This document shows positions 25,935 to 44,527 of a stretch of DNA of 64,000 nt, in pieces. The stretch is taken from positions 62,001 to 126,000 of the forward strand of contig CALXHQ010000005.1 of the NCBI GenBank assembly GCA_944388145.1. Direction: 5' to 3'. Every line of letters starts with the position of its first letter. Within the stretch, counting starts at the first letter, position 1. Below the pieces are notes generated by a model. The model was not told the origin of the DNA. It searched no databases and saw nothing but the letters and a program-made list of their open reading frames with translations. This DNA is from an uncultured Gemmiger sp. (GTDB lineage: Bacteria; Bacillota; Clostridia; Oscillospirales; Ruminococcaceae). A program made the position numbers and the translations under genes.

Positions 25935-26042
25935 CTCCCTTCCGTTTTCAAAATCACAGGCGGCGTGTCCGGCGCATGCATCTTTTGGCCCACGGCCCGT
26001 GCCTGATGTTTGTGCGGCCTTCCCTGCCGGGGGCCTGCTGCG

Positions 26043-26071
26043 TTGTGTTCCGGCAATTTTCGGCGTATACT
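26043..26071 (+). promoter_or_regulatory. Promoter of the esterase gene
   Basis: TTGTGT (26043-26048), 17 bases, TATACT (26066-26071). It lies 41 bases before the esterase start, in the divergent gap with the AraC gene. Confidence 0.6.
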
Positions 26072-26112
26072 GGAAGGAAAGAATCGAACCAGTTGAAAGG
26101 AGCCGGACGCCC

Positions 26113-27144: not shown

Positions 27145-27182
27145 AAAGGAGGGCGCTGCTCAGGCGCCCTCCTTTGCTTTTG
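27145..27182. terminator. Bidirectional terminator between esterase and LytTR two-component genes
   Basis: AAAGGAGGGCGC (27145-27156) pairs with GCGCCCTCCTTT (27164-27175). A-rich sequence on one side and GCTTTT on the other allow use from both strands. The stop codon of the minus-strand kinase lies in the loop. Confidence 0.85.
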
Positions 27183-28500
27183 CCGGGACGGGCAGCACGA
27201 TATCAACCTGAAAGAGCTGGTCCTCGGTGGAGATTTCCAGGTTGCCGCCGTATTTGTCCACAATGCGGCGGATGCTGCGCATCCCGTAGCCATGGCCCGC
27301 CTTGTCCCCCTTGGTGGTCAGGGGCAGGCCGTCCCGCAGCTGCACCTTGCCCTCAAAGTGATTTTCCACATGGATCACCAGCATCTGGCTTGCAGGCCGC
27401 ACCGAAAGATGGATAAACCGCTTGTCCGGCGGCAGTTCCGCCTCGTACTCAATGGCATTGTCCAACATGTTGCCAAACAGCGAGAAAATGTCCATTGCCT
27501 CCATGAAGTTCATCTTTTCCCCTTCGGCAATACAGGTAAACTGAATATTGTGGGTGGCACAGTGCAGCCGCTTGTCGGTCAGCACCACATCCAGCGTCTC
27601 GTTGCCGGTGCGCACCGCGCTGTTGTACAGGTTGACCGACTGTTCCAGACTTTCCAGATAAGCCGGGTCCACCTGGCCGGTTTCCCGCAGGTGGCGGATC
27701 TGGTGTTTCAGATCATGGCACTTGATATTGATGGCATCGATATTTTCTTTGGTCAGCCGGTACTGGCGTTTTTCCTCCGCCCAGATGGTCTGCATGGCCA
27801 GCAGTTCGCTGCGGTCCCGGGCTGCGATCAGCGTAAGCACCTGCATCATCAACATAAACAGGTAAAAGACAATCTCGCCCATGTTGAGCAGGTTGTAGAA
27901 AAACAGGTCGTAATTGGCAATGACCTGGCTTTCAAAATAGAAAATCGGTGTGAGGATGCAGACCAGCGCAAACATCAAAAGCGAGTTCTGCATGGGGATC
28001 TCGCCCCCGGAAAAGCGCCGCATACGGCGTTCCACCGTAAAAAAGATGGAGGAATATCCAATCAGGAAGCTGCCAAAATACATCAGGATGTGGGAAATGG
28101 TCCCCTCCACAAACAGCGGCTGGAGGGTGTTGTTCTGCCGGCAGACCGACGCCATTACCAAAAACAGCCGGTCGGTGATGTACCAGGTCATAAACCCGGA
28201 GCCAAAATAGAACAGCATATTCCAGAACGATTCCCGATAGCAGCACATCAGCCCCAGCAGCATCAGGCAGATCAGAACCCCGGAGTAGATGGCCTCGATG
28301 GCAATGCTGCCGCCGTAGGTGGCGGCAAACACCAGGCACAAGAATCGGATGCCCACCAGCCACAGCGCCGCCCGCAGCCAGAAGCGGGGCCGGCGCTGGC
28401 AGTGGCCGGCGAACAGCAGCGTTGCCGCGAGGAAGGCCACAAAAATATCAAAGAATTTGAAATGGGCAAGGAGCGCCGCTATCATTCCGTTAGAAGCCAT
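27160..28500 (-). CDS. GHKL-type sensor histidine kinase (AgrC/ComD-like)
   Basis: A 446-residue kinase with six or seven N-terminal transmembrane helices (about 1-215). A cytoplasmic part has the phospho-acceptor motif KCHDLKHQI and a GHKL ATPase domain with FGNMLDNAIEYE and a glycine box KAGHGYGMRSI. This is the HPK10 type that usually pairs with LytTR regulators. The ATG at 28500 has AAGGGGG upstream and lies 12 bases after the regulator gene. No peptide-pheromone or maturation gene is nearby, so the signal may be a metabolite. A paralogous pair lies at 42420-44449. Confidence 0.9.
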   Translation of the reverse strand: MASNGMIAALLAHFKFFDIFVAFLAATLLFAGHCQRRPRFWLRAALWLVGIRFLCLVFAATYGGSIAIEAIYSGVLICLMLLGLMCCYRESFWNMLFYFGSGFMTWYITDRLFLVMASVCRQNNTLQPLFVEGTISHILMYFGSFLIGYSSIFFTVERRMRRFSGGEIPMQNSLLMFALVCILTPIFYFESQVIANYDLFFYNLLNMGEIVFYLFMLMMQVLTLIAARDRSELLAMQTIWAEEKRQYRLTKENIDAINIKCHDLKHQIRHLRETGQVDPAYLESLEQSVNLYNSAVRTGNETLDVVLTDKRLHCATHNIQFTCIAEGEKMNFMEAMDIFSLFGNMLDNAIEYEAELPPDKRFIHLSVRPASQMLVIHVENHFEGKVQLRDGLPLTTKGDKAGHGYGMRSIRRIVDKYGGNLEISTEDQLFQVDIVLPVPAKAKEGA

Positions 28501-28512
28501 GGGCCCGCCCCC

Positions 28513-29217
28513 TTACTGCCGGCTGAGATAGCCGGTGACCGCGGCGTAGAATGCCTTGCGCCGCCGCTGGCTGACCGGCAGCCGGGTGCCCGCCACCATC
28601 ACATCGTTGCCGTTGACGGAATCCACGTGCCGCAGATTGACCAGGTGGGAGGTACTGCACCGGGCAAAGCCCCAGGGAGCCAGCTGGGCTTCCACCTCCG
28701 AAAGTTTGCCCCAGGCGGTCAGGTTGCCCTGCTCGGTATGGTAGATCAGCAGGTGGTCCCGGATCTCCACATAATAGAGCGTGTCCACCAGGATGCGGGT
28801 GATACCGCCGGCGGATTGGATCACCACCTCCCGGGATTGCCTGTTGGCGATCCGCCGCAGTGCCCGGCGCATCATGGAGGAGAATCGGTAATAGTTGATG
28901 GGTTTGACCACAAAGTCCAACGCGTCCACCGCATAGCCGCTGACTGCATACTGTTCCAGATTGGTCACAAATACCAGCGTGACGGTTGACCCCCTTTCCC
29001 GCAGACGGCGGGCCACCTCCATGCCGTTCATCGCCGGCAGATCAATGTCCAGAAAAAGCAGGTCATAGCCAGGCTGGCACTGTTCCAGAAAAACCGCCGG
29101 ATCACTGAACGAGGCGATGGAAAACCGCTGCCGCTGCTCCCGGGCGTACCGGTCCAGGCAGTCTTTCAGCGAGGCAAGATCCGACGGATCATCCTCCAAA
29201 ATTGCAATTTGAACCAT
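28513..29217 (-). CDS. LytTR-family response regulator
   Basis: A 234-residue regulator. The receiver (about 1-120) has ILEDDPSD, phospho-acceptor Asp57 in LLFLDIDLPAMNG and Lys in FVVKPI. The C-terminal LytTR DNA-binding domain (about 130-234) has YYVEIRDHLLIYHT and FARCSTSHLVNLRHVDSV. The ATG at 29217 follows TGAGG; the extension to 29310 crosses the promoter. It is transcribed with the GHKL kinase. The target genes are unknown; candidates are the O-acylation cluster just upstream or the carbohydrate genes. Confidence 0.92.
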   Translation of the reverse strand: MVQIAILEDDPSDLASLKDCLDRYAREQRQRFSIASFSDPAVFLEQCQPGYDLLFLDIDLPAMNGMEVARRLRERGSTVTLVFVTNLEQYAVSGYAVDALDFVVKPINYYRFSSMMRRALRRIANRQSREVVIQSAGGITRILVDTLYYVEIRDHLLIYHTEQGNLTAWGKLSEVEAQLAPWGFARCSTSHLVNLRHVDSVNGNDVMVAGTRLPVSQRRRKAFYAAVTGYLSRQ

Positions 29218-29263
29218 GGCACAGACCTCATTTCCACAGGCAGACAGCCGTCCTTCTGTTTGT

Positions 29264-29293
29264 ATTGTAGCACGCACCCGACCCGGCGGGCAA
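29264..29293 (-). promoter_or_regulatory. Promoter of the first LytTR/GHKL unit
   Basis: On the minus strand TTGCCC (29288-29293) and TACAAT (29264-29269) are 18 bases apart, ending 47 bases before the regulator start. Confidence 0.6.
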
Positions 29294-29387
29294 GGGGATC
29301 CTTTTTCCATCAGTTCCCCTCCGGGCGGGCGCCAATTGCTGCGCCGCCGCTGTACCGGTCAGAGCCCGGTCAGACAGGGCGGGCACA

Positions 29388-30713
29388 TCAGCGGATGTTG
29401 GCCGCGTAGCCGGACCAGAAATAGCTGAGCTTGTAATCGTCCGCCGCCCCATCCGGCACCAGGATGGACACATCGGCGGCGCAGCCGTCCAGCAGGCCCT
29501 GGCCAGGGACACAGGCAGTGGGGTCGGCGCTTTGCAGCCGGATGGCACGCAGCGCATCACAGCCCGCAAAGGCGCCGTCCGCGATGGCGGTGACGGGCAG
29601 GCCCTGCCAGTGGGTGGGCACGGTCAGCGTTTTGCGGCCGCGGCCCTCCTCCGCCACACCGGTCAGCACCGCGGCGCCGCCCCGCTGCTCAAAGGTAAAG
29701 CAGGCGGCATCGCTGTCATCGCCCGCCGCCGTCTCTGCCGTGGCCAGTTCCGGCATGGCGGGAATGGGGATGCCGGTTTTGCTGGTGTCGCCCAGCTGGG
29801 CCTTCAAATCCCGCACCAGCGTGCGGGTGTTCAGCTGCCGCCCGGCGCTGTTCAGATGGAAGTTGGTGTCATAAAACCAGGCCGGGTCCAGGACGCAGGC
29901 GTTCGGGTCGCCCAAAATCGGAAAATCCAGCTGTCCGCGCAGAAAGTCATAATAAGTGTCCGGGTCGCCCTGCACCGCCGCGGCGTTCATGGGACAGAAG
30001 CGGTAATAAACCTGCGCCCCCTGTTCCGCCGCGCGGGCCGCCCAGGTGTTGACAAACTCCACAAATTCCGCATCCAGCACCCCGGGCTCCAGCAGCACCG
30101 GGGTGTTTTGGTCCCAGCCGCCGGGCATGATGTTGGCGGGGGTATCGGCGCGCACATCCCCGCGGCTGTCAAAGCTGGCATGTCGGTAAACGCCCTCCGG
30201 CACCGGCTTTTCGCCCCGGAGGAAATAGTTCAGCTTGCGGGCGGCAAAGTAGGGGAACTGCCCCAGCAGCGCACCGAAGTGGGAGGAATCCAGCCGGGCC
30301 AGCAGGGCGAAATCACCGTCCAGCGCCTGCCAGGCGGCCTCGGCGTTGAAATAGCAGGAAAGGGTCTGCGCCTGCTGTTCCGGCGAGAGGATGACGATAT
30401 CCCCTTCCCGGAACTGGCCGTCCGACAGTTCCAGCATCAGCTGGGTGCCCAATGCGGCGTACAGCCCGAAATTGACCACGGTATAGCCGGGGAACTCCTG
30501 TTCCAGCAGGGCGCTGTCCACCCCAAAGGCCAGGCTGCTGCCCCCCACCAGGATGATCCGGGGGGAGGGGCTTTGTTCCAGCAGGGCGCACTTGTCCGAA
30601 AGCTCGCCCAGAAAGCTCTCGTCATACTGGGCGGGCAGGCCAAAGCCGCACCCCAGCAGGAACGCCGGGCCGGCCAGCAGCAGGGCCAACAGTTGCAGCA
30701 ACAGTTTTTTCAT
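29388..30713 (-). CDS. SGNH-type (AlgJ/DltD-like) protein with C-terminal leucine-rich-repeat region
   Basis: A 441-residue exported protein. The N-terminal hydrophobic segment ends in LLGC (Cys22), either a lipobox or an anchor. An SGNH-like domain (about 50-320) has the block-I serine in ILVGGSSLAFG (Ser59/60) and a D-x-x-H motif in YDTNFHLNSAG. The last 100 residues look like a BspA-type repeat (VPTHWQGLPVTAIADGAFAGCDALRAIRL). Such SGNH proteins hand acyl groups from an MBOAT protein to a polymer. The gene starts 12 bases after the MBOAT gene. Its domain order is the reverse of that in the lipoprotein at 32299-34086, its apparent paralog. Confidence 0.72.
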   Translation of the reverse strand: MKKLLLQLLALLLAGPAFLLGCGFGLPAQYDESFLGELSDKCALLEQSPSPRIILVGGSSLAFGVDSALLEQEFPGYTVVNFGLYAALGTQLMLELSDGQFREGDIVILSPEQQAQTLSCYFNAEAAWQALDGDFALLARLDSSHFGALLGQFPYFAARKLNYFLRGEKPVPEGVYRHASFDSRGDVRADTPANIMPGGWDQNTPVLLEPGVLDAEFVEFVNTWAARAAEQGAQVYYRFCPMNAAAVQGDPDTYYDFLRGQLDFPILGDPNACVLDPAWFYDTNFHLNSAGRQLNTRTLVRDLKAQLGDTSKTGIPIPAMPELATAETAAGDDSDAACFTFEQRGGAAVLTGVAEEGRGRKTLTVPTHWQGLPVTAIADGAFAGCDALRAIRLQSADPTACVPGQGLLDGCAADVSILVPDGAADDYKLSYFWSGYAANIR

Positions 30714-30725
30714 GGCAGTCCCCGG

Positions 30726-32081
30726 TCAGAATTGGAAATAGATGAAGGCGTTGCCCGCCCCGGCTGCCAGCAACGACAGCCAGGCCAGCGCAATGCCGGC
30801 GGTCAGGAAAAATCCGGCGGCCGCCGCGCGGCGGGGCTGTGTGACCGGCGCGGGCCAGCCACGCAGCCGGATCAACAGCGCCGCGCCCAGGGCGACCTGC
30901 AGCAGGTCGGGCAGGGCCAGGCCCAGGTCGGGCAGGGCACCCCAACCGGTGGGCAGCGACGCCGCCAGCGCAAGCGCGTCCGCCACCGTGTCGGCCCGGA
31001 AAAAGATCCAGGCAAAGCAGACAAAGGCAAAGGTCAGGCACTGGCCCAGGCGGCGGGGCAGCCAGGCCCGGGCGGGCAGCAGCGTCTCGGCCACCATGGC
31101 GGCGCCGTGCAGGCCGCCCCAGACAACAAAGGTCCAGTTGGCGCCGTGCCACAGGCCGCTGGCCAGGAACACCGCCATGATGTTGGCGCAGTGGCGCAGT
31201 TTGCCGCACCGGCTGCCTCCCAAAGGGATGTAGAGATAGTCGGTCAGCCAGCTGGTCAGGCTGATGTGCCACCGGCGCCAAAACTCCCGGATGGAGGCCG
31301 CGGTATAGGGGGCGTCAAAGTTTTTCATCAGCCGCACGCCCATCAGCCGGGCGGCACCGCAGGCAATGTCCGAATAGCCGGAGAAATCGCCGTAGATCTG
31401 CAGCGCAAACAGCACTGTGGCAGCGGCCACCGCCGGGCCGGAAGCGTTCGCCGCGCCGGCGTAGACCGGGTCCACAAAGCGGGCGGAAAAATCGGCAATG
31501 ACCAGCTTTTTGCAGTAGCCACGCAGCAAAAACTGCGCCCCCGCCCAGTAATCCTCGGCGGTGGGATTTTGGGCGGCGTGCAGCTGGGGCAGCAGGTTCT
31601 GCGGGCGCTCGATGGGCCCAGCCACCAGCTGGGGGAAATAGGCCACAAACAGCGCGTAGTAGCCAAAGTGCCGCTCCGGCTGCATGGTGCCCCGGTAGGC
31701 GTCAATGACGTAGGAAAGGTTCTGGAAGGTATAAAAGCTGATGCCCACCGGCAGCATCAGCGCCGGGGCGCTCAGCCCGAACAGCGATGCCGCAAAGCCC
31801 AGGTACTTGAACAGGAACAGAATTCCCAGGCAGGTGGCCAGCGCCAGCGCCAGCCAGGCGCGGCGGGCGGCGGTGCTTTGGCTTTCGGCCACCCGCAGCG
31901 CCGCCAGGTAACACACGCCGGTGGCGAGCAGCAGCAGCGGGAAGGCCGCCGGCTGGCCGCTGGCGTAAAACAGCCAACTGGCCGCCAGCAGCGGCACCCA
32001 CCGCCAGCGGGGGACGGTCAGCCGCCAAACCAGCAGCACCAGCGGAAACAGCAGCACAAACTGCGCCGAGGCAAAGTTCAT
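30726..32081 (-). CDS. MBOAT-family O-acyltransferase (AlgI/DltB-like)
   Basis: A 451-residue multi-pass membrane protein. MBOAT hallmarks are FKYLGF, LPVGISFYTFQNLSYVID, YFPQLVAGPIERP, REFWRRWHISLT, YIPLGGSR and the catalytic His in SGLWHGANWTF. These proteins move acyl groups across the membrane onto cell-surface polymers such as alginate or teichoic acid. The ATG at 32081 overlaps the stop of a 74-aa membrane-protein gene (ATGA) and follows GGGAGGG. It is flanked by two SGNH-type partners, which fits acyl hand-off outside the cell. No alginate or dlt genes are visible, so the polymer is unknown. Confidence 0.92.
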   Translation of the reverse strand: MNFASAQFVLLFPLVLLVWRLTVPRWRWVPLLAASWLFYASGQPAAFPLLLLATGVCYLAALRVAESQSTAARRAWLALALATCLGILFLFKYLGFAASLFGLSAPALMLPVGISFYTFQNLSYVIDAYRGTMQPERHFGYYALFVAYFPQLVAGPIERPQNLLPQLHAAQNPTAEDYWAGAQFLLRGYCKKLVIADFSARFVDPVYAGAANASGPAVAAATVLFALQIYGDFSGYSDIACGAARLMGVRLMKNFDAPYTAASIREFWRRWHISLTSWLTDYLYIPLGGSRCGKLRHCANIMAVFLASGLWHGANWTFVVWGGLHGAAMVAETLLPARAWLPRRLGQCLTFAFVCFAWIFFRADTVADALALAASLPTGWGALPDLGLALPDLLQVALGAALLIRLRGWPAPVTQPRRAAAAGFFLTAGIALAWLSLLAAGAGNAFIYFQF

Positions 32082-32302
32082 CGGCCGTCCCTCCCCCGCC
32101 CCAGGCAGGCAAGGGCCAGCACCAGCGCAGCCAGCATCAGCTGCTGCAGGGTAGCGCCGCAGACAAGCGCCGCCACGGCCAGCACCACGGCCAGAAAGAT
32201 GGCAAACAGCATACAAAACACCCCAAAAGTCTGGTTTTCATCGGCGTACCCGGTGCGCCCCAATCCATGGGGCCGCCCGGAATGGTTTCTGAGGCAAATC
32301 AT
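32078..32302 (-). CDS. Small two-helix membrane protein (74 aa)
   Basis: A 74-residue frame squeezed exactly between two genes. Its ATG (32300-32302) overlaps the upstream TGA by four bases, and its own TGA (32078-32080) overlaps the MBOAT ATG by four. A polar N-terminus (about 25 residues) precedes two hydrophobic segments (VFCMLFAIFLAVVLAVAALVCG and LMLAALVLALACLG regions), then a basic tail. No family is recognised. The double ATGA overlap and the membrane character argue for a real subunit, comparable in position to DltX beside DltB, although no similarity was seen. Confidence 0.65.
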   Translation of the reverse strand: MICLRNHSGRPHGLGRTGYADENQTFGVFCMLFAIFLAVVLAVAALVCGATLQQLMLAALVLALACLGRGRDGR

Positions 32303-34086
32303 TCTTCCGGCACGTTCCGCACGCTGCCCGGCGGCAGGTATTCCGCCAGCCAGGCAAGCACCTGCCGGGTGCGGATTGCCACACCCTCGGTGGAGAGGTG
32401 GTTGTCGGTACCGTAAAGGTACCGCCCCGGCCAGAGTGAATCCTCCAGCGTGCCCAGCACCGGCACGCACAGGTTCTGCCGCAGGCTGGCGTCCAGCTCG
32501 GCCCGGGCTTCGGGGGTACTGTCCGCCGAGAGCGCCTGGGCGTTGCGGGGCGCGTAGGTGAAGAACACCTGCACCCCCTTGTCCAAAAAGCGTTGGAACA
32601 TGGCGTTGAGCGGCGTGACAAACTGCCCGGCAGGCAGGCCGTGGGTGGTGTACTCCACCGCCAGGCCGTAAACCGGGGCGTCGTCCGCCGCATTGGGGCG
32701 GTAAAGGCAGTAGTCGCCGTACCTGTTGTAGCTGGGGGTGTCGGTGGGGTTGCCGTCCTCGTCAAAATCGGCCGGGGAGAGGCCATAACTTTTTTCCGGC
32801 AGAGAGGCACGATTGGCCAGATACTCGGCCAGGGCGGCAAACGCGCCGGAGGTCTGGCGCAGGTTCAGCGCCGCCAGCATCTGGTAGTTGGCCTCCATCA
32901 TGCAGAAGAAGGAATCGTCCAGCTTGCCGGTGGTGCAGAACTGCCGCTGGGCGGCATCAAACTCGGGGGAATCCAGCAGGATGTCCCCCGCCTGCATGCA
33001 GTCCAGGATCAAAAGCAGCTGGGGCGTGGCGTTGGTGTAGGCAAACACCCCCATGTTGACCACATCATACCCGGGCAGGGCGGCGTCCAGCAGGGCGCTG
33101 TCGTACCCGAAGCGGGTGGATGACCCGGAAAACAGCACCAGCTTTCGGGTATCCCGCAGTGCCAGCAGCCGGTCATACTTGTCGGCAAAGGCGGCAAAGT
33201 AGCCGCCGCTGTACCGGGGTGCGGTGGCCGCTTGCAGCCGCAGCGTTTGCAGAGCGGGGCAGTTTTGCACCGGGTCGGCGTGCAGGCTGGTGATATCGTC
33301 AAACATCGTCAGCACGGCAAGATTGGGGCACTCCCGGATCGCCCCCTCCTCCAGCCGAGCCAGGCCCTGGGGCAGCACAATCTCCCGGCAGGGCAGGCCG
33401 GACATCGCCCCCGATGCAATGCCCACCACCGGGCGGCCATCGATCTCGGCGGGCACTGCCAGAACCGCATCTTCTGCGGTGCAGCCGGTGATGACGGCCC
33501 CCGCCCCTTCCGGCAGCCAGGTGAAGCAGGCGGCATCGGTCCAGGGCTGCCAGACGGCATAAATGTCCAGCGTTTCCTGCCCTGCAAAGTCCAGCCGGCC
33601 GCCCTGCACCACCGCCTGGCCGCCGTCCGGGGCAGTGCTCCAGCCGGTCTGGGTATAGCCATCCCGGGAAAACAACCTCGCCCGCGGGGTGTTCAGCCGG
33701 GCGTGAGTGTCCAGCACCGCCTGCCGCACCGATGCGCCGGTGCCGTCGTTGGCATGGCAGACAAAGGCGGTGCCGCTCTGCTGTGCGGTGACCGTGACCA
33801 CCGCGGGGTAGCGCACCTCTTCCAGCGTCAGGGTATAGCCATCGGCCGAGGGTTCCAGCATAGCATCGGGGTAGTCGCAGCCGGTGAGAGTGTAGCCATC
33901 AGCCGGGCGCAGCGCAAACCGCACCGTTCCGCCCCGCACCACTGTCTGCACCGGGTCGGCGGCGGTGAAGGCTTTGCTCTCCTCCAAAACCACCTGGCAG
34001 GTGTCCGCCGGGGCGGCGGGCTGCGCAGTGCAGCCCGCCAGCAACAGCGCGGCCAGCAAAATGGCCAGAATTTTGCGCACGGGCAT
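32299..34086 (-). CDS. Lipoprotein with repeat region and C-terminal SGNH domain
   Basis: A 595-residue exported lipoprotein (lipobox LLLAGC, Cys19). An N-terminal beta region (about 25-115) is followed by a Listeria/InlB-type repeat (YTQTGWSTAPDGG to YAVW). Next is a BspA-type leucine-rich segment (VPAEIDGRPVVGIASGAMSG and LPQGLARLEEGAIREC), and then an SGNH-like domain (about 270-595). That domain has FSGSSTRFGYDSALLD and GTDNHLSTEG. The start ATG 34086 follows AAAGGGGG; the frame open to 34305 runs through a hairpin. It is first in the unit with the 74-aa protein, MBOAT and second SGNH protein. It may bind or modify a surface glycan. Confidence 0.72.
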   Translation of the reverse strand: MPVRKILAILLAALLLAGCTAQPAAPADTCQVVLEESKAFTAADPVQTVVRGGTVRFALRPADGYTLTGCDYPDAMLEPSADGYTLTLEEVRYPAVVTVTAQQSGTAFVCHANDGTGASVRQAVLDTHARLNTPRARLFSRDGYTQTGWSTAPDGGQAVVQGGRLDFAGQETLDIYAVWQPWTDAACFTWLPEGAGAVITGCTAEDAVLAVPAEIDGRPVVGIASGAMSGLPCREIVLPQGLARLEEGAIRECPNLAVLTMFDDITSLHADPVQNCPALQTLRLQAATAPRYSGGYFAAFADKYDRLLALRDTRKLVLFSGSSTRFGYDSALLDAALPGYDVVNMGVFAYTNATPQLLLILDCMQAGDILLDSPEFDAAQRQFCTTGKLDDSFFCMMEANYQMLAALNLRQTSGAFAALAEYLANRASLPEKSYGLSPADFDEDGNPTDTPSYNRYGDYCLYRPNAADDAPVYGLAVEYTTHGLPAGQFVTPLNAMFQRFLDKGVQVFFTYAPRNAQALSADSTPEARAELDASLRQNLCVPVLGTLEDSLWPGRYLYGTDNHLSTEGVAIRTRQVLAWLAEYLPPGSVRNVPEE

Positions 34087-34258: not shown

Positions 34259-34678
34259 TTAGGCTTCCTTGGTGATGTCGAAGAAGGAGGCAAACACCGC
34301 CACAACGCAGCCGATCAGCAGGCAGGCCAGGCTGATGATGCAGCTTTGCAGGTCGGCCATATTTTCGGCGCTGTTGGTGAAGGTCATAATGGCGGCAATG
34401 GCATTGATGCGGCTGACCAGGAACAGGACAAAGCCGACCATCAGCAGCACGGGGGCCGCCACGGGCAGGATGTCCATCCAGGTCTTCTGGCCTTTTTGGG
34501 CCACGGCGATCAGCAGCACTTCCACCACAATGGCAGCGACGGTGCATCCGATCACACCGGGGTTGACGCCATCCGCGATAAAATAATTGGTGTTGCAGTT
34601 GATGAAGTAGAACACAAGGCCGACAATGGCCAGCACGGCGGACAGGGCCGTGAGGGGAAATCCGGCAGATTTTTTCAT
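34259..34678 (-). CDS. Four-helix membrane protein of unknown function
   Basis: A 139-residue protein with four hydrophobic segments (about 8-27, 40-62, 70-92 and 110-133) and short polar loops. The last loop includes TFTNSAENMADLQS. No family is recognised from the sequence. The ATG at 34678 follows GGGAGGG, 18 bases after the GH3 gene, so the two are probably translated from one message. The close link with a membrane-tethered GH3 suggests an accessory or anchoring role; that is only inference. Confidence 0.7.
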   Translation of the reverse strand: MKKSAGFPLTALSAVLAIVGLVFYFINCNTNYFIADGVNPGVIGCTVAAIVVEVLLIAVAQKGQKTWMDILPVAAPVLLMVGFVLFLVSRINAIAAIMTFTNSAENMADLQSCIISLACLLIGCVVAVFASFFDITKEA

Positions 34679-34696: not shown

Positions 34697-37600
34697 TCAG
34701 GACTTTTTGCGCTTGGCGGCGCGGATGTACATAGCGGCACCGGCCAGCGTCAGCAGGGCAAAGGCGATCTGCGCGCCGGTCAGAGCATTGTCGTACCAGG
34801 TGCGCACGCTGACCAGGCGGCTGGTGGAGGACAGGCCGTCCATGGCGTTGGAGTTGGCCAGGGCGTAATTCTGCCACAGCATGTCCTGCTTGAGGGCAGC
34901 CAGAAGGGTAGCGTCCTGGCTGACATTCTCAACCGTCCAGTAGGGCCACTTCTCACTGACGGCTTCCATGGTGGAATCGCCGGTGTTGCAACTCATGGTG
35001 ATGCCGTTGATGACGGCTTCCTTCAGGGCGGTATAGTTGGCGTCCTGGATGAAGTCCTCACTCATCAGACCCTGGAAGCCCCACTCGCCGCGGAGAATGT
35101 TGATCATCAGGCCGGTGTGGGAGTTGCTGGTGAAGCAGCCCACGCGGTTGTAAGCGGTCATGACGCCCAGCGCGCCGGCGTCCTCGATGATGGCCTGGAC
35201 GCCGCGCAGCTCGTTCTCACGGGCCTGCTGCTCGGTCATGAAGACGGCCACGCCGGTACGGTTGACCTCGGTGTCGTTGAAGGCCAGGTGCTTGGGAGCC
35301 TCGATGCAGCCGTACTCCTTGGCGGCGGCCACATAGGCGGCGCCCTGGCCGGCGGTCAGGACAGCGTCCTCGGAGTAGTACTCGTGGTTACGGGCGTTGT
35401 AGGGCAGGCGATGCAGGTTGGTGCCGCAGCCCCAGTGGATGGTCAGGTTGCTCCACAGGCTGTAGTTGCCCACCACACGGCCGTACTCGGCAGCCAGCTG
35501 CTTGCTGAAGGTGGAACCGATGACCGTCTCGTTGGGCATGACACCCATCTTGTAGGTCAGGTTGGGATCGCTGGGATCGACGGCGCAGGGGTCGCCGGAG
35601 GAGGTGTCGGTGTTGGCGTACTGGCCCAGAGGATAGCTGTAGATGCCGTTGGGGCCATCGTTCTGGATGGTCTCGGGGCTCATGATGGACTCGATGGCCT
35701 TGGTGGAGGTGCCGCCGAAGCCGGTGCGGATCAGGCAGTCCTCCAGCTTGATCTGGTCCATCAGCAGGGTCCAACGCTCGTCGGTGATGTCGGTGACGCC
35801 CTTCAGGTCAGCCAGGGTCAGGCCGTTGTCGGCGCCGAAGGTGACGGAGGAGGGATCGCCGTTGGCGGTGATCTGGTAGTTGTCGTTGTCCATGACATCG
35901 AGCATCTCATCGGTGGCGGTGAGGTTCTCGTAGGTCTTGGGCCAGGTGCCCTCCCAGTCGCTGCGGGTCAGGTAGGTGACGGTGTCGGGCATCCAATAGT
36001 TCAGGTCCATGTCCTCCAGCTGGTTCTCCACGGCGGTGCCGTTCTTGCTGTGGGCAAAGGTGGTGAAATCGCTCTCGGCCAGGTTCCAGGTCTGGACCTT
36101 GGCGGCATCGCCGGCGGTCTGCTGGCCCTGGGCGGCCAGGACGTTCATGGCGGCGTCGTGGGCGTCGGTGCCGATGGCGAAGTAGTAGTCGCCGGCATCC
36201 AGCATGTAGGTGCCCTTGGTGCCGACGGCGTTGTCAGCGGAGGAATCCCAGCTGGTCATGTCCTGCATATCGGCCACCAGGGTGACGGTCTCGCTGGCAC
36301 CGGGCTCCAGCAGCTCGGTCTTGCCGTAGTCCAGCAGCTGGACACCGGCCTTCTCCACGGCGTGCTCCTTGTCGTAGTCGGTGTAGGGCAGGCTGACATA
36401 CAGCTGCACCACATCCTTGCCGGCCACGTCGCCGGTGTTGGTGACGGTGACCTCGGCGGTGACGGTCTTGGCCTCCTTGTCCACCGTCAGGCTGTCCAGA
36501 GACTGGGTGAAGGTGGTGTAGCTCAGGCCGTAGCCGAAGGGATAGGTGACCTCGTCGTCATAGTTCCAGGCGGAGCCGGTGGTGCTGCCCACGGTGGAGC
36601 TGGCGTTGCCCTGGCCCAGGACGGTATCCATGTAGCGGGTCTCGTAGTACTTGTAGCCGATGTAGATGTTCTCGGCCTCCACCAGCTCGGAGTTGATGGA
36701 AGTCTCGGGGTTGGCGTTGGTCCACTCCAGATCGCCGTAGTTCTGCGCTGCGGGGGAGTTCTCATTGTCCACAGCGTAGGTGTCGGGCAGACGGCCGGAG
36801 GGGTTGGCGGCGCCGGACAGGATGTCCGCCACGCCGTAGAAGCCGTAGCCGCCGGGCAGGCCCACCTGCAGGATGGCGTCCACGCCCTCATTGTCCTGGA
36901 TCTCCTGCACCTCCATGGCGCTGGAGTTGTTCAGGATGACGATGACCTTGCCGCCGTTGGCTGCCTTGGCGTCCACCGCGGCCTGGATCAGGTCGCGCTC
37001 GTCGTCGGACAGGCCCAGAGGATCGGTCTGGTTCAGGTTCTGGGTGGGGTCCACGCCGGCGGTGCCGGGGGTGTAGTTGGCGTTCTCGGAACCGGCGCGG
37101 GCGATGGTGACGATCATGACGTTGTAGTCATTCAGGGTATCCTTCCAGCCTGCGCTGGCCTGCTCCATGGCGGCCTGGCTGGGCTCCTTGCTGCTGAACA
37201 CGCTGCCGATGGAGGGCGCGGTGATGTTCAGGTAGCTGGTGGTGCCGCCCCAGCTCTCCACCTCGGTGGTGTAGGTGCTCTCCAGGGAGGTGTAGATCTG
37301 CTGCAGGGTGGGGTTGATGGCAAAGCCCTTGGCCTGGAAGGCCTGGACCATGTCCACGGTGTCGGCGTCGGTGCCGGTGTTGGCGGTCAGGCTGGAGCCC
37401 ATGATGCCGCCCATCACCGGGTGATAGCTGGAGAAGCCCAGCAGAGAGAGCTTCTGGGTTTCCTCCTGGGTCAGGGGCAGGGCGCCGTTGTTCTTGAGCA
37501 GGACGGAGCCCTCCTCGCTGATGCGCTCGCCCAGATCCTCGATGGCATCCAGCAGCTCGGTGGTGGTGGAATAGTCGGACGTGTAGGTATACACGGTGGC

Positions 37601-37780
37601 AGGGTCCGCATCCTCGGTGACGATCTTGGTGGACTGGGTCCCCAGGAACTTGTCGATGTCGGTGCGGAAGCTGTCAACAACAGTGCCGGCGCAGATGCTC
37701 AGCGACAGGACCGTTGCGCAGGTAGCCGTGACGCCGCGCCAGACGCGCTGGCTGTGGCGGCCGGTGGAATCTTGCTTCAT
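34697..37780 (-). CDS. Permuted GH3 beta-glycosidase, membrane-tethered
   Basis: A 1027-residue GH3 enzyme with the usual domain order swapped. The alpha/beta sandwich domain (about 60-360, with SEEGSVLLKNNGALPL and GRLPDTYAV) and fibronectin-III-like region (about 400-510) come first. The TIM-barrel domain with KHLAFNDTEVNRTG and the nucleophile in GLMSEDF (Asp909) comes last. Hydrophobic helices near the N-terminus (about 16-36) and C-terminus (about 1000-1020), the latter followed by KRKKS, suggest the enzyme is held on the outer face of the membrane. The ATG at 37780 follows AAGGAGG. It shares a unit with a GPH symporter and GH78, pointing to rhamnosyl-glucoside breakdown. Confidence 0.9.
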   Translation of the reverse strand: MKQDSTGRHSQRVWRGVTATCATVLSLSICAGTVVDSFRTDIDKFLGTQSTKIVTEDADPATVYTYTSDYSTTTELLDAIEDLGERISEEGSVLLKNNGALPLTQEETQKLSLLGFSSYHPVMGGIMGSSLTANTGTDADTVDMVQAFQAKGFAINPTLQQIYTSLESTYTTEVESWGGTTSYLNITAPSIGSVFSSKEPSQAAMEQASAGWKDTLNDYNVMIVTIARAGSENANYTPGTAGVDPTQNLNQTDPLGLSDDERDLIQAAVDAKAANGGKVIVILNNSSAMEVQEIQDNEGVDAILQVGLPGGYGFYGVADILSGAANPSGRLPDTYAVDNENSPAAQNYGDLEWTNANPETSINSELVEAENIYIGYKYYETRYMDTVLGQGNASSTVGSTTGSAWNYDDEVTYPFGYGLSYTTFTQSLDSLTVDKEAKTVTAEVTVTNTGDVAGKDVVQLYVSLPYTDYDKEHAVEKAGVQLLDYGKTELLEPGASETVTLVADMQDMTSWDSSADNAVGTKGTYMLDAGDYYFAIGTDAHDAAMNVLAAQGQQTAGDAAKVQTWNLAESDFTTFAHSKNGTAVENQLEDMDLNYWMPDTVTYLTRSDWEGTWPKTYENLTATDEMLDVMDNDNYQITANGDPSSVTFGADNGLTLADLKGVTDITDERWTLLMDQIKLEDCLIRTGFGGTSTKAIESIMSPETIQNDGPNGIYSYPLGQYANTDTSSGDPCAVDPSDPNLTYKMGVMPNETVIGSTFSKQLAAEYGRVVGNYSLWSNLTIHWGCGTNLHRLPYNARNHEYYSEDAVLTAGQGAAYVAAAKEYGCIEAPKHLAFNDTEVNRTGVAVFMTEQQARENELRGVQAIIEDAGALGVMTAYNRVGCFTSNSHTGLMINILRGEWGFQGLMSEDFIQDANYTALKEAVINGITMSCNTGDSTMEAVSEKWPYWTVENVSQDATLLAALKQDMLWQNYALANSNAMDGLSSTSRLVSVRTWYDNALTGAQIAFALLTLAGAAMYIRAAKRKKS

Positions 37781-37880
37781 GATAGACCTCCTTGGTTTCG
37801 ATAGACGTATATTTCCGGCGCATCCGCCCCGTTTTCTTCCCTCCGGGGCCGGGTGTGCAAAGGACGATTTGGGGCACGCA

Positions 37881-39530
37881 TCACTTCTTTTTGGCGTGCT
37901 TGGCCTGGTATTTGGCCTCTTCCTCGGCAAAATTCAGGCCCTTTTTGGCGCATTTTGCCTTGAGTTCCTCAATGCGGGCGGCCTCGGCCTCCTTCTCGGC
38001 CTGCTCCTGCTCGCGGCGCAGGCGCTCGGCAGGCTCAACCCACTCGCCGCCGGCGGCCAGCACGGCAGCCTTCTGGTGCTCAAGGATGACAGCCTGGTCC
38101 TCCTTGATGTGCTTTTCCACCTTCAGGAAGCTCATCAGCACAACAATGATGGCGTAGCAGACCAGCTCAACGCCCAGGTAGCAGATGACCAGCATATTCT
38201 GGACGGCGGGGTTCTGGGCGGGCAGGCTGGCATCGTAGCCTGCGGCGGTCAGCAGTACGTTGATGATGCCGTTGCCCAGGCCGGTCATGCCGACCATAAT
38301 GGCGCCGTACACCGACATGGTGAAGCCGTCGGAGCGGAAGCCGTTCTTTGCCTCCAGGTGGTCCAGCACATCGCTGAGCAGGGCCAGGGTGACGTACATG
38401 GCGGGGATGGAACCGATGCCCTTGAGGATGATACCGATGCAGACGATGACGAAGTTATGCACATCGATAAAGCTGGCCAGGCCGCCGATGACCGAGACGG
38501 CCAGGCCCAGCACCACGGCCCGCTGCTTGCCCAGCTTGTTGGCGATGGGCCAGGCCAGCACCATGCCGATGGCCGTGGGGATGCCGCCGATGGCGCCCAG
38601 CAGGCCCATGGCGGTGCCGCTGTCGATGCCCTCGAACACCCAGGTGCAGTAGTAGTTCATCGAGCCGTTCTTGACCAGGCCGCCCAGCTGGAACAGCAGG
38701 AAGTAGAGGATGATGATCCACCAGTATTTGTTGCTCATGCAGACCTTGATCTGCTTGGACATGGGGATTTTCTTTTCCTCCACCGGCATCTTGAGGCTTT
38801 CCTCGGTGATGCGCTCGCGGCTGAAGTAGTATTCGATCAGGATGCCGATGGCGGTGATGACGCACAGTACCACCATGACCACCCGCCAGTTGGCGTAGCT
38901 GGCATCGGCGTTGATGGAACCATCGGCGTTGGGCACAAACAGGAAGTTCTGCAGCAGCATCGGGACCAGGATGCTGGCGCCGATGCCCACGGCGGCCACG
39001 CCGGAGGCGTTGGAGAAGGTGGACAGCAGGCCGCGGTCGTTGGAATTGCGGGTGGACAGCGCCACCAGCGAGGAATGGGCGGTGTAGTACAGCGGGTAGG
39101 CCACCGAGTAGTACAGGTTGTAGCTGACGGCGATCCAGACCATCTGCATGGCGGGCGCGGCCTGTTTGGGCACCACGAACAGCGTGATGATGGCCACCGC
39201 CAGCAGCGGGGCGGACAGGATCAGGTAAGGCCGGGCCTTGCCCTGGGTGGTTTTGGTGTTGTCCATCAGCCGGCCGACCACCAGGTTGCCGATGATAACG
39301 CAGATCACCGACAGGATGGGCAGCAACGCCGAGAAGTTGCCGAACCGGCTGGTGTCGGTCCAGACCAGGACGTCGGAGTAGTAACGGTTTAAGTAGCTGC
39401 CGAAGATCGCGTTGGAGATCAACGCGCAAAAGGGGCCGATCAGGTAGCCCAGCAGCATCTCGGTGGGCTTGACGTTGGCCGAGGTGATCCGCGTCTTGAA
39501 TACCGGCGCTTCGATCCATTTCATGTTCAT
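37881..39530 (-). CDS. GPH-family sugar:cation symporter with charged C-terminal tail
   Basis: A 549-residue, 12-helix symporter related to the one at 3891-5369 (shared EMLLGYLIGPFCALISNAI, GKARPYLIL and RNSNDRGLLSTF regions). It has an unusual extra tail of about 65 residues, rich in Glu, Lys and Ala, likely helical or coiled coil, ending AKHAKKK. AAGGAGATGTCAGG places the start at 39530. It lies between the GH78 rhamnosidase and GH3 genes, so it probably imports rhamnose or a rhamnosyl-glycoside. It is not the RhaT or RhaY type. Confidence 0.88.
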   Translation of the reverse strand: MNMKWIEAPVFKTRITSANVKPTEMLLGYLIGPFCALISNAIFGSYLNRYYSDVLVWTDTSRFGNFSALLPILSVICVIIGNLVVGRLMDNTKTTQGKARPYLILSAPLLAVAIITLFVVPKQAAPAMQMVWIAVSYNLYYSVAYPLYYTAHSSLVALSTRNSNDRGLLSTFSNASGVAAVGIGASILVPMLLQNFLFVPNADGSINADASYANWRVVMVVLCVITAIGILIEYYFSRERITEESLKMPVEEKKIPMSKQIKVCMSNKYWWIIILYFLLFQLGGLVKNGSMNYYCTWVFEGIDSGTAMGLLGAIGGIPTAIGMVLAWPIANKLGKQRAVVLGLAVSVIGGLASFIDVHNFVIVCIGIILKGIGSIPAMYVTLALLSDVLDHLEAKNGFRSDGFTMSVYGAIMVGMTGLGNGIINVLLTAAGYDASLPAQNPAVQNMLVICYLGVELVCYAIIVVLMSFLKVEKHIKEDQAVILEHQKAAVLAAGGEWVEPAERLRREQEQAEKEAEAARIEELKAKCAKKGLNFAEEEAKYQAKHAKKK

Positions 39531-39542
39531 CCTGACATCTCC

Positions 39543-42092
39543 TTACTGATATTGTTCGCTGACAGTATACACGCCGCTGCCGAAGGTTTTGGCAGTTCCG
39601 CCGGGCAGGGTCACCTCGCAGGTGGTGCCCACCGGCACGGTCACGGTGACGGTCAGGGTCCCGTTTTCGATCTTCCAGTCGCTGCCGGCCAGGCCGTAGG
39701 GGGTCTCCACCTGCGCTTTGGCGCTGGTCAGACCGCCGCCGATCACCGGCTTGACGGCAAATCGCTTGTAGCCGGGCTCAGTGGCCTGCAGTCCGGCGAT
39801 GCGCTGGTAGAGGAAGGCACCCACCGCGCCGGATGCATAATGGTTGTAGGAGATCATCTTGTCGGTGCCGTCATCGCCGATGGGGCAGGTGCCGTTCTCG
39901 TCCAGGCCGTCCCACCGCTCCCAAATGGTGGTGGCGCCCACGCGGACCTCGTACAGCCAGCTGGGGCACTTGGTGTTCATCAGCATCTTGTAAGCCACGT
40001 CCGGACGGCCGTTGTCGGCCAGGGCGAACAGGATATAGGGCGTGCCGGGAAATCCGGTGCCGATGCAGTAATCGCTCTTTTCCACCAGGCGGACCAGGTT
40101 GTCCACCGCCTTGGCGCGAACGTTCTCGGGGAACATCTTCAGGTAGAGGGGCAGCACGTAGGCGGTCTGGAACTCCTCCAGCAGTTTGCCGTTGCCATCG
40201 GTCAGCAGGGTGCAATAGGCATCGGCAGCAGCATCGCTCAGCGCCTGGTAGGCCCTGGCGTCGGCGTCGTTACCCAGGATGCGGGCGATTTTTGCCACCA
40301 AACCGCTGGTGCTGCGCAGGCTGGCGGTGCCGGTCCACTTGTTGCGGGCCTGCCACTGGCTCATCTGCGGCACATCGGGGGCAACCCAGTCGCCAAAGCT
40401 GAAGGCGCCCGGCATGGCCCAGATGTACCTCTTTTTGCCGGTGCTGAACAGCCCGGCCCAGAACTTGCAGGCGCCCACATATTTTTTCATGGTGGGGTAC
40501 ATATCGCGCAGGACCCCCACATCGCCGGAGGCCTGGTAGATGGCCCAGGGCACCAGCACGCAGGCATCGCCCCACCAGGCAATGGCCATTTCCGGCATGG
40601 TTGCGGGGAACCCGTAGCCCTGTACCGGCACCGTGTTGGGGATGCCGCCGGTTTTCAGCTGCTCGGTTTTCACATCCCGCAGCCACTTTTTCAAAAAGCG
40701 GCTCACGTCAAAGTTGAAGCAGGCGGTAGGGCCAAACACTGCAATGTCGCCGGTCCATCCCATGCGCTCATCCCGCTGGGGGCAGTCGGTGGGGATATCC
40801 ATAAAATTGGAGCGGGCGCTCCACAGGATATTGGACTGCAGGCGGTTGAGCATCTCGTCCGAGCACTGGAAGCTGCCGATCTGCCGCACATCCGACCAGA
40901 GGGCCAGCGCCTCGACGGTCAAGGCGGCCTCGTCCGCGCCGGTGACGCTGATGTAGCGGAAGCCCATGTAGGTAAAGCGGGGATGCCAGGTCTGAACGCC
41001 CTCACGGCAGATGTAGGTGGCGGTGGCTTTGGCCGTGCGCAGGAAGGCGGTGTTCAGGCTGCCGTCCGGGTTGAGGATCTCGGCGTGACGGATGGTGATG
41101 ACCTGCCCGGCCTTTGCCTTGACGTTGAAGCGGACAACGCCGGCAAAGTTCTGGCCGAAGTCGTAGATCAGCTCCCGACCGCGCCGGGTGCAGGAGACCG
41201 GTTTCATGACCTTTTGGGCCTTGACCGGGGCGCCGATGTCGGCGCTGATGGCGGGATTGATCCGCAGCGTTTCCGGGGCGGCCGCGTGCCAGCCGGCGCG
41301 CTCGATGTCCACGGTGGCGTCGTAGGTCTCGCCGTCGTAGAGGTCCGCCATGCGGACAGGACCATCCTCGGTGACCTGCCAGCTGGAGTCGGTGCCGATG
41401 ACCTCCTCGCTGCCGTCGGTGTAGGTGACGCGCAGCTCGGCCAGCAGGGCCTGGCGGTCGGCGGTGACCCGGTTGACGCGGGTGAACACAAAGCTGCCCA
41501 CCGCCCAGCCGCCGGCCACAGTGGCCACCAGGGTGTTGTACTCCCCCAGCTGGCGGGTGACATCGTAGGCCTGGTACTGGAGATTGGACTTATAGCTGGT
41601 AAAACCAGGGGCAAACCACTGCTCCCCCACCTTTTTGCCGTTGAGCTCCAGCTCATAGATGCCCATGGCGGTGACATACAGCCGGGCCTTCGCGATGGGC
41701 TTGGCGGGGTGGAACGCCTTGCGGAACACCATCGGCAGGGGCGACACCTTTTTCTCGGTAAAGCGGTAGGATGGATCGCTGATCCACTGGCCCTGCCAGG
41801 GGATGTCCATGCGTCCGGTCTCAAAGTCCAGCTCCGCCGTGGCGGTATCGCCGTTGGAGGCAGTCGCCTTGAGCACCGCATGATAGCAGGTGAAGGGCAG
41901 CAGCACCGGTCCGGCATATTGGATGGTTTGGCCGGCGGCCTGCGTTTTCCAGTCCCCCACCTGCAGCTCGGCCGACGCCAGGGTGATGTTCCGGCCATCG
42001 CTTTCCAGCGCAAAGTTGAAGCTGGGATGGGAATGGTCGGTCACGCAGCCGGCCGTCAACCCTTCCACGGCAAAGCGGGTAATTTTTAACAT
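39543..42092 (-). CDS. Alpha-L-rhamnosidase, GH78
   Basis: An 849-residue GH78 enzyme that removes terminal alpha-L-rhamnose. Domain order matches the family: N-terminal Fn3/beta domains (about 1-130), concanavalin-like domain (about 130-330, with YVTAMGIYELELNGKKVG), and an (alpha/alpha)6 barrel (about 400-740) with the signature DIPTDCPQRDERMGWTGD. A C-terminal beta domain completes it. There is no signal peptide, so the substrate is imported first. The ATG at 42092 follows AAGGAGG. It is the first gene of the unit with a GPH symporter and GH3. The complete rhamnose pathway lies upstream at 44.8-49.9 kb, giving the released sugar a fate. Confidence 0.93.
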   Translation of the reverse strand: MLKITRFAVEGLTAGCVTDHSHPSFNFALESDGRNITLASAELQVGDWKTQAAGQTIQYAGPVLLPFTCYHAVLKATASNGDTATAELDFETGRMDIPWQGQWISDPSYRFTEKKVSPLPMVFRKAFHPAKPIAKARLYVTAMGIYELELNGKKVGEQWFAPGFTSYKSNLQYQAYDVTRQLGEYNTLVATVAGGWAVGSFVFTRVNRVTADRQALLAELRVTYTDGSEEVIGTDSSWQVTEDGPVRMADLYDGETYDATVDIERAGWHAAAPETLRINPAISADIGAPVKAQKVMKPVSCTRRGRELIYDFGQNFAGVVRFNVKAKAGQVITIRHAEILNPDGSLNTAFLRTAKATATYICREGVQTWHPRFTYMGFRYISVTGADEAALTVEALALWSDVRQIGSFQCSDEMLNRLQSNILWSARSNFMDIPTDCPQRDERMGWTGDIAVFGPTACFNFDVSRFLKKWLRDVKTEQLKTGGIPNTVPVQGYGFPATMPEMAIAWWGDACVLVPWAIYQASGDVGVLRDMYPTMKKYVGACKFWAGLFSTGKKRYIWAMPGAFSFGDWVAPDVPQMSQWQARNKWTGTASLRSTSGLVAKIARILGNDADARAYQALSDAAADAYCTLLTDGNGKLLEEFQTAYVLPLYLKMFPENVRAKAVDNLVRLVEKSDYCIGTGFPGTPYILFALADNGRPDVAYKMLMNTKCPSWLYEVRVGATTIWERWDGLDENGTCPIGDDGTDKMISYNHYASGAVGAFLYQRIAGLQATEPGYKRFAVKPVIGGGLTSAKAQVETPYGLAGSDWKIENGTLTVTVTVPVGTTCEVTLPGGTAKTFGSGVYTVSEQYQ

Positions 42093-42224
42093 ATTCCAGC
42101 CTCCTTGCATGGTACGGCGGGCAGCACAGCGTAGCCCTGCCTGCCAGCCGGGAACGGCTGTTCGCCGGCGGCCTTTCCCGGTATTCTGACATATGCCATG
42201 GCCCTTGCACCGCATTGTGCGTTA

Positions 42225-44449: not shown

Positions 44450-44527
44450 GCGGACATCACTCCTCCCAAAAAAATTTCTGCGCGGTTGCAGGGCAGTGCC
44501 GGCTGCCTGCACTGTTTTGGTTGTATG

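Follow-up and report, generated by a model that had tools for sequence, protein, structure and literature searches.

What role does a membrane acyltransferase play when its gene lies in one unit with those for two different SGNH-type proteins, both carrying leucine-rich repeats, and for a tiny hydrophobic protein? The question is raised by a 64,000-nucleotide stretch of DNA from an uncultured Gemmiger sp. (assembly GCA_944388145.1, contig CALXHQ010000005.1, positions 62,001 to 126,000), which we refer to as the window. On its minus strand, running from 34086 to 29388, four closely spaced genes encode a lipoprotein (P1), a small membrane protein, an MBOAT acyltransferase and a second SGNH protein (P4). 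The initial annotation of the window had placed four coupled genes here, with the repeats before the SGNH domain in the first protein and after it in the last, and had proposed that they might form a distinct acyl-transfer module. All four genes are indeed found there, and the mirrored layout of P1 and P4 is real. We lean, with slightly better than even confidence, towards the view that the unit is a module of the MBOAT-SGNH type for envelope acylation, known to date from Clostridia.

That the module is a distinct and conserved entity is borne out by a clade of 27 MBOATs whose gene content is kept among relatives. We mapped 28 loci, to which L190 was added as the twenty-ninth; one of them (L172) is a contig that carries P1 only and comes from the same genome as L171. 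In a tree of 124 MBOAT sequences (a quick search, with a midpoint root for drawing only), the 27 module MBOATs fell into a single set with an SH-aLRT support of 100, together with L004, which is a second copy of the window's sequence. Every one of the 27 is accompanied by P4 and by a small hydrophobic open reading frame (ORF) adjoining the MBOAT gene; the ORF of L190, for example, encodes 72 aa and ends 16 nt before the MBOAT gene. P1 is adjacent in 26 of the 27, the copy in L080 being cut by the contig end, and lies on a separate contig in the remaining case (L171/L172). The order P1-small ORF-MBOAT-P4 is found in 21 of the 27 loci, while L044, L048 and L063 have P4-P1-small ORF-MBOAT, L174 has ligase-small ORF-MBOAT-P1-P4, and L080 has ligase-carrier protein-small ORF-MBOAT-P4-P1; the order in L171 is interrupted by a contig end. 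These arrangements show that the content of the module is kept while its order changes, and that the small ORF stays paired with the MBOAT gene. A lack of conservation in relatives had been named at the outset as grounds for abandoning the idea; gene content is instead retained, although gene order varies. L185 was considered as a further module and rejected, as its MBOAT lies outside the clade on a long branch and its contig has a P4 gene, but no P1 gene or small ORF that we could find.

A search with P4 at E ≤ 0.001 matched 22 of 100 genomes, the window's own included, and the long, repeat-bearing form was present in six of the 100 (the window's genome being one), each with a P1-like gene upstream. 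Within the genus, eight of 35 genomes were hit by a P1 profile; the match was full length in G000 (the window's genome), G006, G008, G025 and G027, and spanned only part of the SGNH domain in the other three. Wider draws from the order, class and phylum, which overlap partly and all contain the window's genome, were searched with a P4 profile at E ≤ 1e-20: the matches numbered 17 of 394 genomes in the order (among them G400, the source of L185, which we do not count as a module) and four of 391 in the class, where the long forms were those of the window's genome and of G694, and in the phylum draw the window's genome was the only match among 398. In a scan of contigs, two SGNH proteins of the P1 and P4 types were found together in five (L044, L047, L048, L063 and L080) of the best 80 of at least 592 stretches. 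The named relatives that carry the module are Clostridia or Bacillota metagenome-assembled genomes. The search that had been suggested, for MBOAT genes with two repeat-bearing SGNH proteins and a small ORF, has thus recovered the module in relatives.

The MBOAT domain itself is recognised by Pfam (PF03062, 91.1 bits against a cut-off of 27), and the protein matched the PDB entries 6bug and 8jem at about 1e-27. Its score against the NCBIfam DltB model TIGR04091 was 144.9 bits, far under the cut-off of 375. The genome of the window (G000, 2.7 Mb) contains eight MBOAT matches in all. Residues 446-451, at the C-terminus, read FIYFQF, and an FxYxxF motif ends each of the 27 module MBOATs as well as that of L185 (28 of 28 in this set). 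In the Dlt system the tyrosine that carries the acyl group lies in an FxYxxF motif at the C-terminus of DltX, whereas other MBOAT-SGNH systems are described in PMC12148441 as having no DltX-like microprotein and as bearing the motif at the C-terminus of the MBOAT.

The small ORF had been read as a 74-aa protein, overlapping both neighbours by ATGA and comparable to the DltX that accompanies DltB. The ORF exists, but its start is doubtful. In L123, whose small protein is 77% identical, an in-frame stop precedes the counterpart of Met31; none of the five codons that separate them is a start codon, and the N-terminal 30 residues of the 74-aa reading are not kept in L123 or L124. Because the L123 frame is closed just before this methionine, the product is probably a 44-aa protein (32212-32078), in which case the ATGA overlap exists with the MBOAT gene only; an overlap of the small ORF's own start with the stop of P1 is nevertheless genuine in six relatives (L124, L125, L126, L169, L173 and L190). 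The protein is highly hydrophobic along nearly its entire length. The 26 small proteins compared range from 44 to 123 aa and mostly have two or three hydrophobic segments, as judged from a crude hydropathy scan. They are very divergent (a mean column identity of 29% in an 18-row alignment), with a weak shared pattern at one alignment position, where a Gly is followed by an acidic or polar stretch and then by Leu. The ratio of non-synonymous to synonymous substitution rates was 0.38-0.55 in three close pairs, a small sample of 44 codons each.

An ORF of this size could arise by chance, and we rejected that possibility with a control. A hydrophobic ORF of 38-125 residues abuts the MBOAT start in five of five loci with two SGNH proteins, versus none of 70 other MBOAT loci, nine of which (L129-L137) come from the window's own genus and family. 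The control drew on 81 keyed loci; in six a contig end lay too close, and 75 could be examined. Eight of the 80 loci from the contig scan had not been keyed, as their match did not start at MBOAT residue 1. The comparison with DltX did not survive. The Bacillus thuringiensis DltX has 48 aa and one helix and ends in FIYNEF, according to PMC5541007, while none of the 26 small proteins has an FxYxxF motif, which is carried instead by the MBOAT in all 27 modules. Judged by the placement of this motif, the system appears to combine a shuttle on the MBOAT with a microprotein of a different kind.

Taken alone, the sequence evidence for the repeat and SGNH identity of the window's P1 and P4 is thin: Pfam returned nothing for P4 even at E ≤ 1, and in P1 the repeats stayed under its cut-offs. 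In the two families (Pfam, E ≤ 0.01), LRR_5 was found in six of 11 P4 members and in nine of ten P1 members, and Flg_new in six of the ten P1 members. The AlphaFold model of P4 has a mean pLDDT of 89.7, and its best Foldseek match is DltD (7dxm, E 4.9e-5; 6o93, 2.3e-4), followed by acetylesterases, including rhamnogalacturonan acetylesterase, and by TpLRR for the repeats (1.1e-3). The serine and D/H motifs that had been assigned to both SGNH domains are there, with Ser, Asp and His in P1 and P4 alike, but their spacing is unusual and neither protein has a canonical DxxH. In P4 the residues are Ser59 and D282-T-N-F-H286, which places the Asp at H-4. In an alignment of 27 rows (with L185 included and L190 left out), G-x-S was present in all 26 readable rows, the Asp in 26 of 27 and the His in 27 of 27; the L124 row had been blanked by trimming, and its Ser is present in a separate alignment. 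The residue at H-2 is Asn in 23 rows and Glu in four. With Ser59 and His286 conserved, and DltD as the best structural match, P4 has the features of an extracytoplasmic SGNH partner.

P1 has the lipobox LAGC. Its model retrieved TpLRR at 1.9e-4 and, weakly, DltD (0.012) and rhamnogalacturonan acetylesterase (0.017). Its catalytic motif consists of Ser322 with D561-x-H563, so that the Asp stands at H-2 instead of H-3; Ser323, an earlier choice of nucleophile, was replaced by Ser322 on a wider alignment. Across 28 rows the nucleophile position is Ser in 24 and Cys in four (L044, L048, L063 and L174), the His is kept in 26 of 27 readable rows, and the acid is variable. The four loci with Cys in P1 nevertheless retain Ser in their P4. 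Comparing the catalytic residues in the two alignments, P4 looks like a strict catalyst and P1 like a more relaxed partner. Two further observations concern P1: in L175 (5212-11391) it is expanded to three genes in tandem, and L182 (3916-7590) encodes a 1225-aa ORF with about twice the P1 score usual for its nearest relatives.

The supply of acyl groups differs between loci. Four loci (L044, L063, L080 and L174) have a gene for an AMP-forming ligase next to the module; in L080 only (one of 27), a gene for a phosphopantetheine carrier protein is there too. Three of these four ligase-bearing loci have Cys in P1, whereas L080 has Ser; L048 also has Cys, but its contig stops just past the MBOAT gene, so that the presence of a ligase cannot be judged. 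Since the L080 ligase is only about 26-30% identical to those of L044 and L063, its divergence suggests that the module ligases were recruited separately. Within 20 kb around the window's module there is no match to a ligase or carrier protein, and the L044 ligase, as a query against the window's genome, retrieved a single ORF, some 33 kb away. The DltD family (PF04914) has no match anywhere in this genome at E ≤ 0.001, nor among the 11 P4 or ten P1 family members at E ≤ 0.01. The initial statement that no dlt genes are present therefore holds for canonical DltD in the entire genome; it has to be qualified by a DltA-like ligase below its cut-off (252 bits against 560), which stands beside another MBOAT. 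This ligase belongs to a separate Dlt-like group of the same genome (G000:C3:145081-149359; L008, L192), in which the MBOAT has about 527 aa. The ORF after it encodes at least 293 aa, is hydrophobic at its N-terminus and matches no Pfam family.

How far, then, does the module depart from what has been described? Like Dlt, it has a DltB-like MBOAT core, an SGNH partner (P4) that best matches DltD and a small membrane protein in the operon, and in L080 a ligase and a carrier protein as well. Unlike Dlt, its MBOAT falls under the DltB cut-off, the genome has no DltD family match, the shuttle tyrosine belongs to the MBOAT, the small protein lacks FxYxxF and in most cases shows two or three hydrophobic segments, there are two SGNH proteins fused to leucine-rich repeats, and counterparts of DltA and DltC are missing near the window's module, a ligase or carrier being present in some relatives only. 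PatA/PatB, to our knowledge, lack leucine-rich repeats. This pair, which O-acetylates peptidoglycan in Gram-negative bacteria, resembles the module in combining an MBOAT that ends in FxYxxF with an SGNH protein, but differs in having no carrier protein, no DltX-like microprotein and a single SGNH protein, as described in PMC12148441. The alginate proteins AlgI, AlgJ, AlgX and AlgF offer a parallel in that one MBOAT works with two SGNH-like proteins in separate roles, with the same DxH spacing as P1; AlgJ likewise departs from DxxH but is circularly permuted, with His before Ser (PMC4148444), while Ser precedes His in both P1 and P4. At E ≤ 0.01, the AlgX and AlgJ Pfam families have no match among the 11 P4 or ten P1 members. 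AlgX has a carbohydrate-binding domain after its SGNH domain, a position that in P4 is taken by the repeats. Closer to home, the single-SGNH loci L129-L137 have an MBOAT that is 39-51% identical and a P4-like SGNH protein alignable over about 285-330 columns, but they have one SGNH protein without repeats, no P1 in the fetched stretch, no abutting small ORF, and MBOATs outside the module clade. A full-text search that left most subscription journals uncovered returned no published description of an MBOAT, SGNH and leucine-rich repeat combination; we did not find a tiny membrane protein together with repeat-bearing SGNH enzymes described for the known MBOAT-SGNH systems, and the literature searches produced no described O-acetylation operon that matches the unit completely, which had been the other stated ground for dismissing it.

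Table 1. Features of the four-gene unit and its upstream neighbours (positions in the window).
Feature	Position	Strand	Length or remark
P1 lipoprotein: Flg_new/InlB-like and BspA-type leucine-rich repeat regions, then SGNH-like domain (Ser322, D561-x-H563)	32299..34086	-	595 aa
P1 BspA/TpLRR-type leucine-rich region, residues ~183-290	33217..33540	-	
P1 SGNH-like domain, residues ~297-583	32338..33198	-	
Small membrane protein, likely 44 aa from Met31 of the 74-aa ORF; 4-nt overlap with MBOAT start	32078..32212	-	
74-aa reading of the small ORF; start ATGA overlaps P1 stop	32078..32302	-	
MBOAT acyltransferase, DltB-like core, putative catalytic His312 in LWHGANW	30726..32081	-	451 aa
MBOAT C-terminal acyl-shuttle motif FIYFQF (Tyr448)	30729..30746	-	motif described in PMC12148441
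P4 membrane-anchored SGNH protein (Ser59, D282, H286) with C-terminal leucine-rich repeat region	29388..30713	-	441 aa; best Foldseek match DltD
P4 C-terminal leucine-rich region, residues ~335-441	29391..29711	-	
139-aa protein, no Pfam match; between GH3 and P1 in 7 loci	34259..34678	-	
GH3 glycosidase, its C-terminal domain preceding the N-terminal one; recurs upstream of the unit, non-core	34697..37930	-	
MFS_2 sugar transporter; neighbour in the window's close relatives, non-core	37881..39530	-	
alpha-L-rhamnosidase; neighbour in the window's close relatives, non-core	39543..42215	-	

Several neighbouring genes were considered as parts of the module and set aside. A GH3 gene occurs in the fetched stretch of only 13 of the 29 loci, the copy in L123 being distant and diverged, and GH3 is a large paralogous family in the genus, with up to twelve matches per genome; we therefore regard it as a neighbour only. 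The same applies to the alpha-L-rhamnosidase, which is near the module in seven of the 29 loci, namely the window (L128), L124-L127, L173 and, as a fragment, L169. Among the 35 genomes of the genus, GH3 copies at least 74% identical and rhamnosidase copies at least 69% identical are present only in the module-bearing G000, G006, G008 and G027; in the remaining genomes the identities are at most 43% and 48%, respectively, and the module-bearing G025 lacks a close copy of either. Outside the window's branch the GH3, transporter and rhamnosidase genes are mostly missing. Within this branch, the module looks as if it sits in a locus for the use of rhamnosides and glucosides, a setting that fits glycan breakdown as much as surface acylation. 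The two-component genes at 27160-29310 were likewise rejected, since, of 28 loci, L128 and L063 alone showed a clear pairing of regulator and kinase; a kinase match in L173 lies at the edge, and weak regulator matches were seen in L126, L178 and L184. A second pair of response regulator and GHKL kinase, at 42420-44512, is 40-42% identical to this one. A BD-FAE-type esterase gene on the opposite strand (25726-27120) was also discarded, as it had no match in L043-L137 except in the window itself, the later loci not having been searched.

Gene content, conservation, motifs, fold matches and the MBOAT clade are observed directly. A sequence of events that would fit them can be modelled on the chemistry of PatA/PatB and Dlt, from which every chemical step is taken by analogy (mechanism in PMC12148441). 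A cytoplasmic acyl thioester would serve as donor, probably acyl-CoA in the window's genome and, in others, the product of an AMP-forming ligase, in one relative with a carrier protein. The MBOAT, through His312, would load the acyl group onto Tyr448, in the FIYFQF motif at its own C-terminus and on the external side of the membrane, and this group would then move from Tyr448 to Ser59 of P4, the presumptive membrane-anchored, DltD-like SGNH enzyme, to be passed on to a surface acceptor bound by the leucine-rich repeats. For P1, the small protein and the acceptor, we infer the roles: P1, the other SGNH protein and itself lipid-anchored, may provide a further relay step or bind the acceptor, much as AlgJ and AlgX have distinct tasks, and the small protein, with its two or three helices, may be a structural subunit of the MBOAT and not an acyl shuttle.

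It could be argued that MBOAT and P4 are an ordinary O-acetylation pair with accessory repeats, with the small ORF as a minor accessory and P1 as a degenerate paralogue kept only for adhesion or as a scaffold. L129-L137, from the same genus and family, do combine an MBOAT with a repeat-less, single-SGNH homologue of P4, and the catalytic residues of P1 are less constrained than those of P4. However, P1 and the small ORF accompany 27 MBOATs of the clade despite rearranged gene order, with one P1 on a separate contig, and the P1 nucleophile is Ser or Cys in 28 of 28 rows with the His in 26 of the 27 readable ones; we consider this account unlikely. We would also call it improbable that the module is fed by a carrier protein and transfers a non-acetyl group (amino, hydroxy or short-chain acyl), with a Dlt-like supply, the shuttle on the MBOAT, and a ligase that has been lost or lies elsewhere in the window's genome. 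The row of ligase, carrier protein, small ORF, MBOAT, P4 and P1 in L080 speaks for such a module, ligases recur in L044, L063 and L174, and the window's genome does encode the DltA-like ligase beside another MBOAT. On the other hand, a ligase stands beside only four of the 27 modules (L048 being unjudgeable) and a carrier protein beside one, the divergence of the L080 ligase makes its recruitment look secondary, and the DltA-like ligase is placed with an MBOAT of its own.

The fold matches to rhamnogalacturonan acetylesterase allow for a different interpretation, in which the SGNH proteins would act as deacylating esterases and the repeats as adhesins, and in which the unit, together with rhamnosidase, transporter and GH3, would process glycosides from the diet or the host. 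The rhamnosidase near the module in six loci besides the window's, the GH3 gene in 13 of 29, and the restriction of close copies of both within the genus to four module-bearing genomes are all consistent with it. Against this stand the constant partner, which is an MBOAT with a shuttle motif and hence an acyl-transfer machine, the best fold match of P4, which is a transferase (DltD), and the patchiness of the neighbours, with GH3 missing beside more than half of the loci, rhamnosidase beside three quarters, and G025 carrying the module without a close copy of either; we think an esterase function quite unlikely. A last variant keeps the acyl transfer but makes the acceptor a surface protein or lipoprotein, perhaps P1 itself, and not a glycan. 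Repeats of this type occur in cell-surface proteins, and the recurrent neighbours included no recognisable glycan-polymer synthase, whereas the MBOAT-SGNH pairs described in PMC12148441 act on envelope polymers; a protein acceptor seems to us very unlikely.

The view that we favour, an envelope acylation module, has to be held against a number of findings that weigh on the other side. The Foldseek TM-scores are low for both SGNH proteins (for P4, 0.16-0.30 by query length), and the P1 model has a mean pLDDT of only 73.6. The active site of P4, with Asp at H-4 and Asn or Glu at H-2, is not a canonical DxxH, and the motif of P1 is looser still; because Cys replaces Ser in four of 28 rows, the His is lost in one of 27 and the acid varies, P1 may not be catalytic in every locus. 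The shuttle motif is not diagnostic of the module, since it is common to most MBOATs examined, including 90 of the 96 others (a total that takes in the second copy of the window's sequence). Full-length P1 is present in only five of the 35 genomes of the genus. The rhamnosidase, sugar transporter and GH3 genes beside the module in close relatives speak for glycan breakdown over polymer synthesis, and no glycan-polymer synthase was recognised, by eye and by Pfam on a few representatives, in the neighbour clusters common to at least three loci.

The envelope acylation module may, at a probability that we would set somewhat short of even, represent an undescribed class in Clostridia, which would consist of an MBOAT clade, a new microprotein family and two mirrored SGNH relay enzymes, with an exchangeable acyl supply (acyl-CoA versus a ligase, or a ligase and carrier) and a change from Ser to Cys in a relay enzyme of the ligase-bearing branch. 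We know of little work on MBOAT-SGNH chemistry in commensal Clostridia. Acylation of envelope polymers by MBOAT-SGNH systems affects antimicrobial resistance, polymer turnover and immune recognition, as set out in PMC12148441. Having an apparent shuttle on the MBOAT as well as a different kind of microprotein, the module would make it testable whether such a microprotein can serve beyond acyl shuttling, and it also raises the question of why two SGNH proteins are retained.

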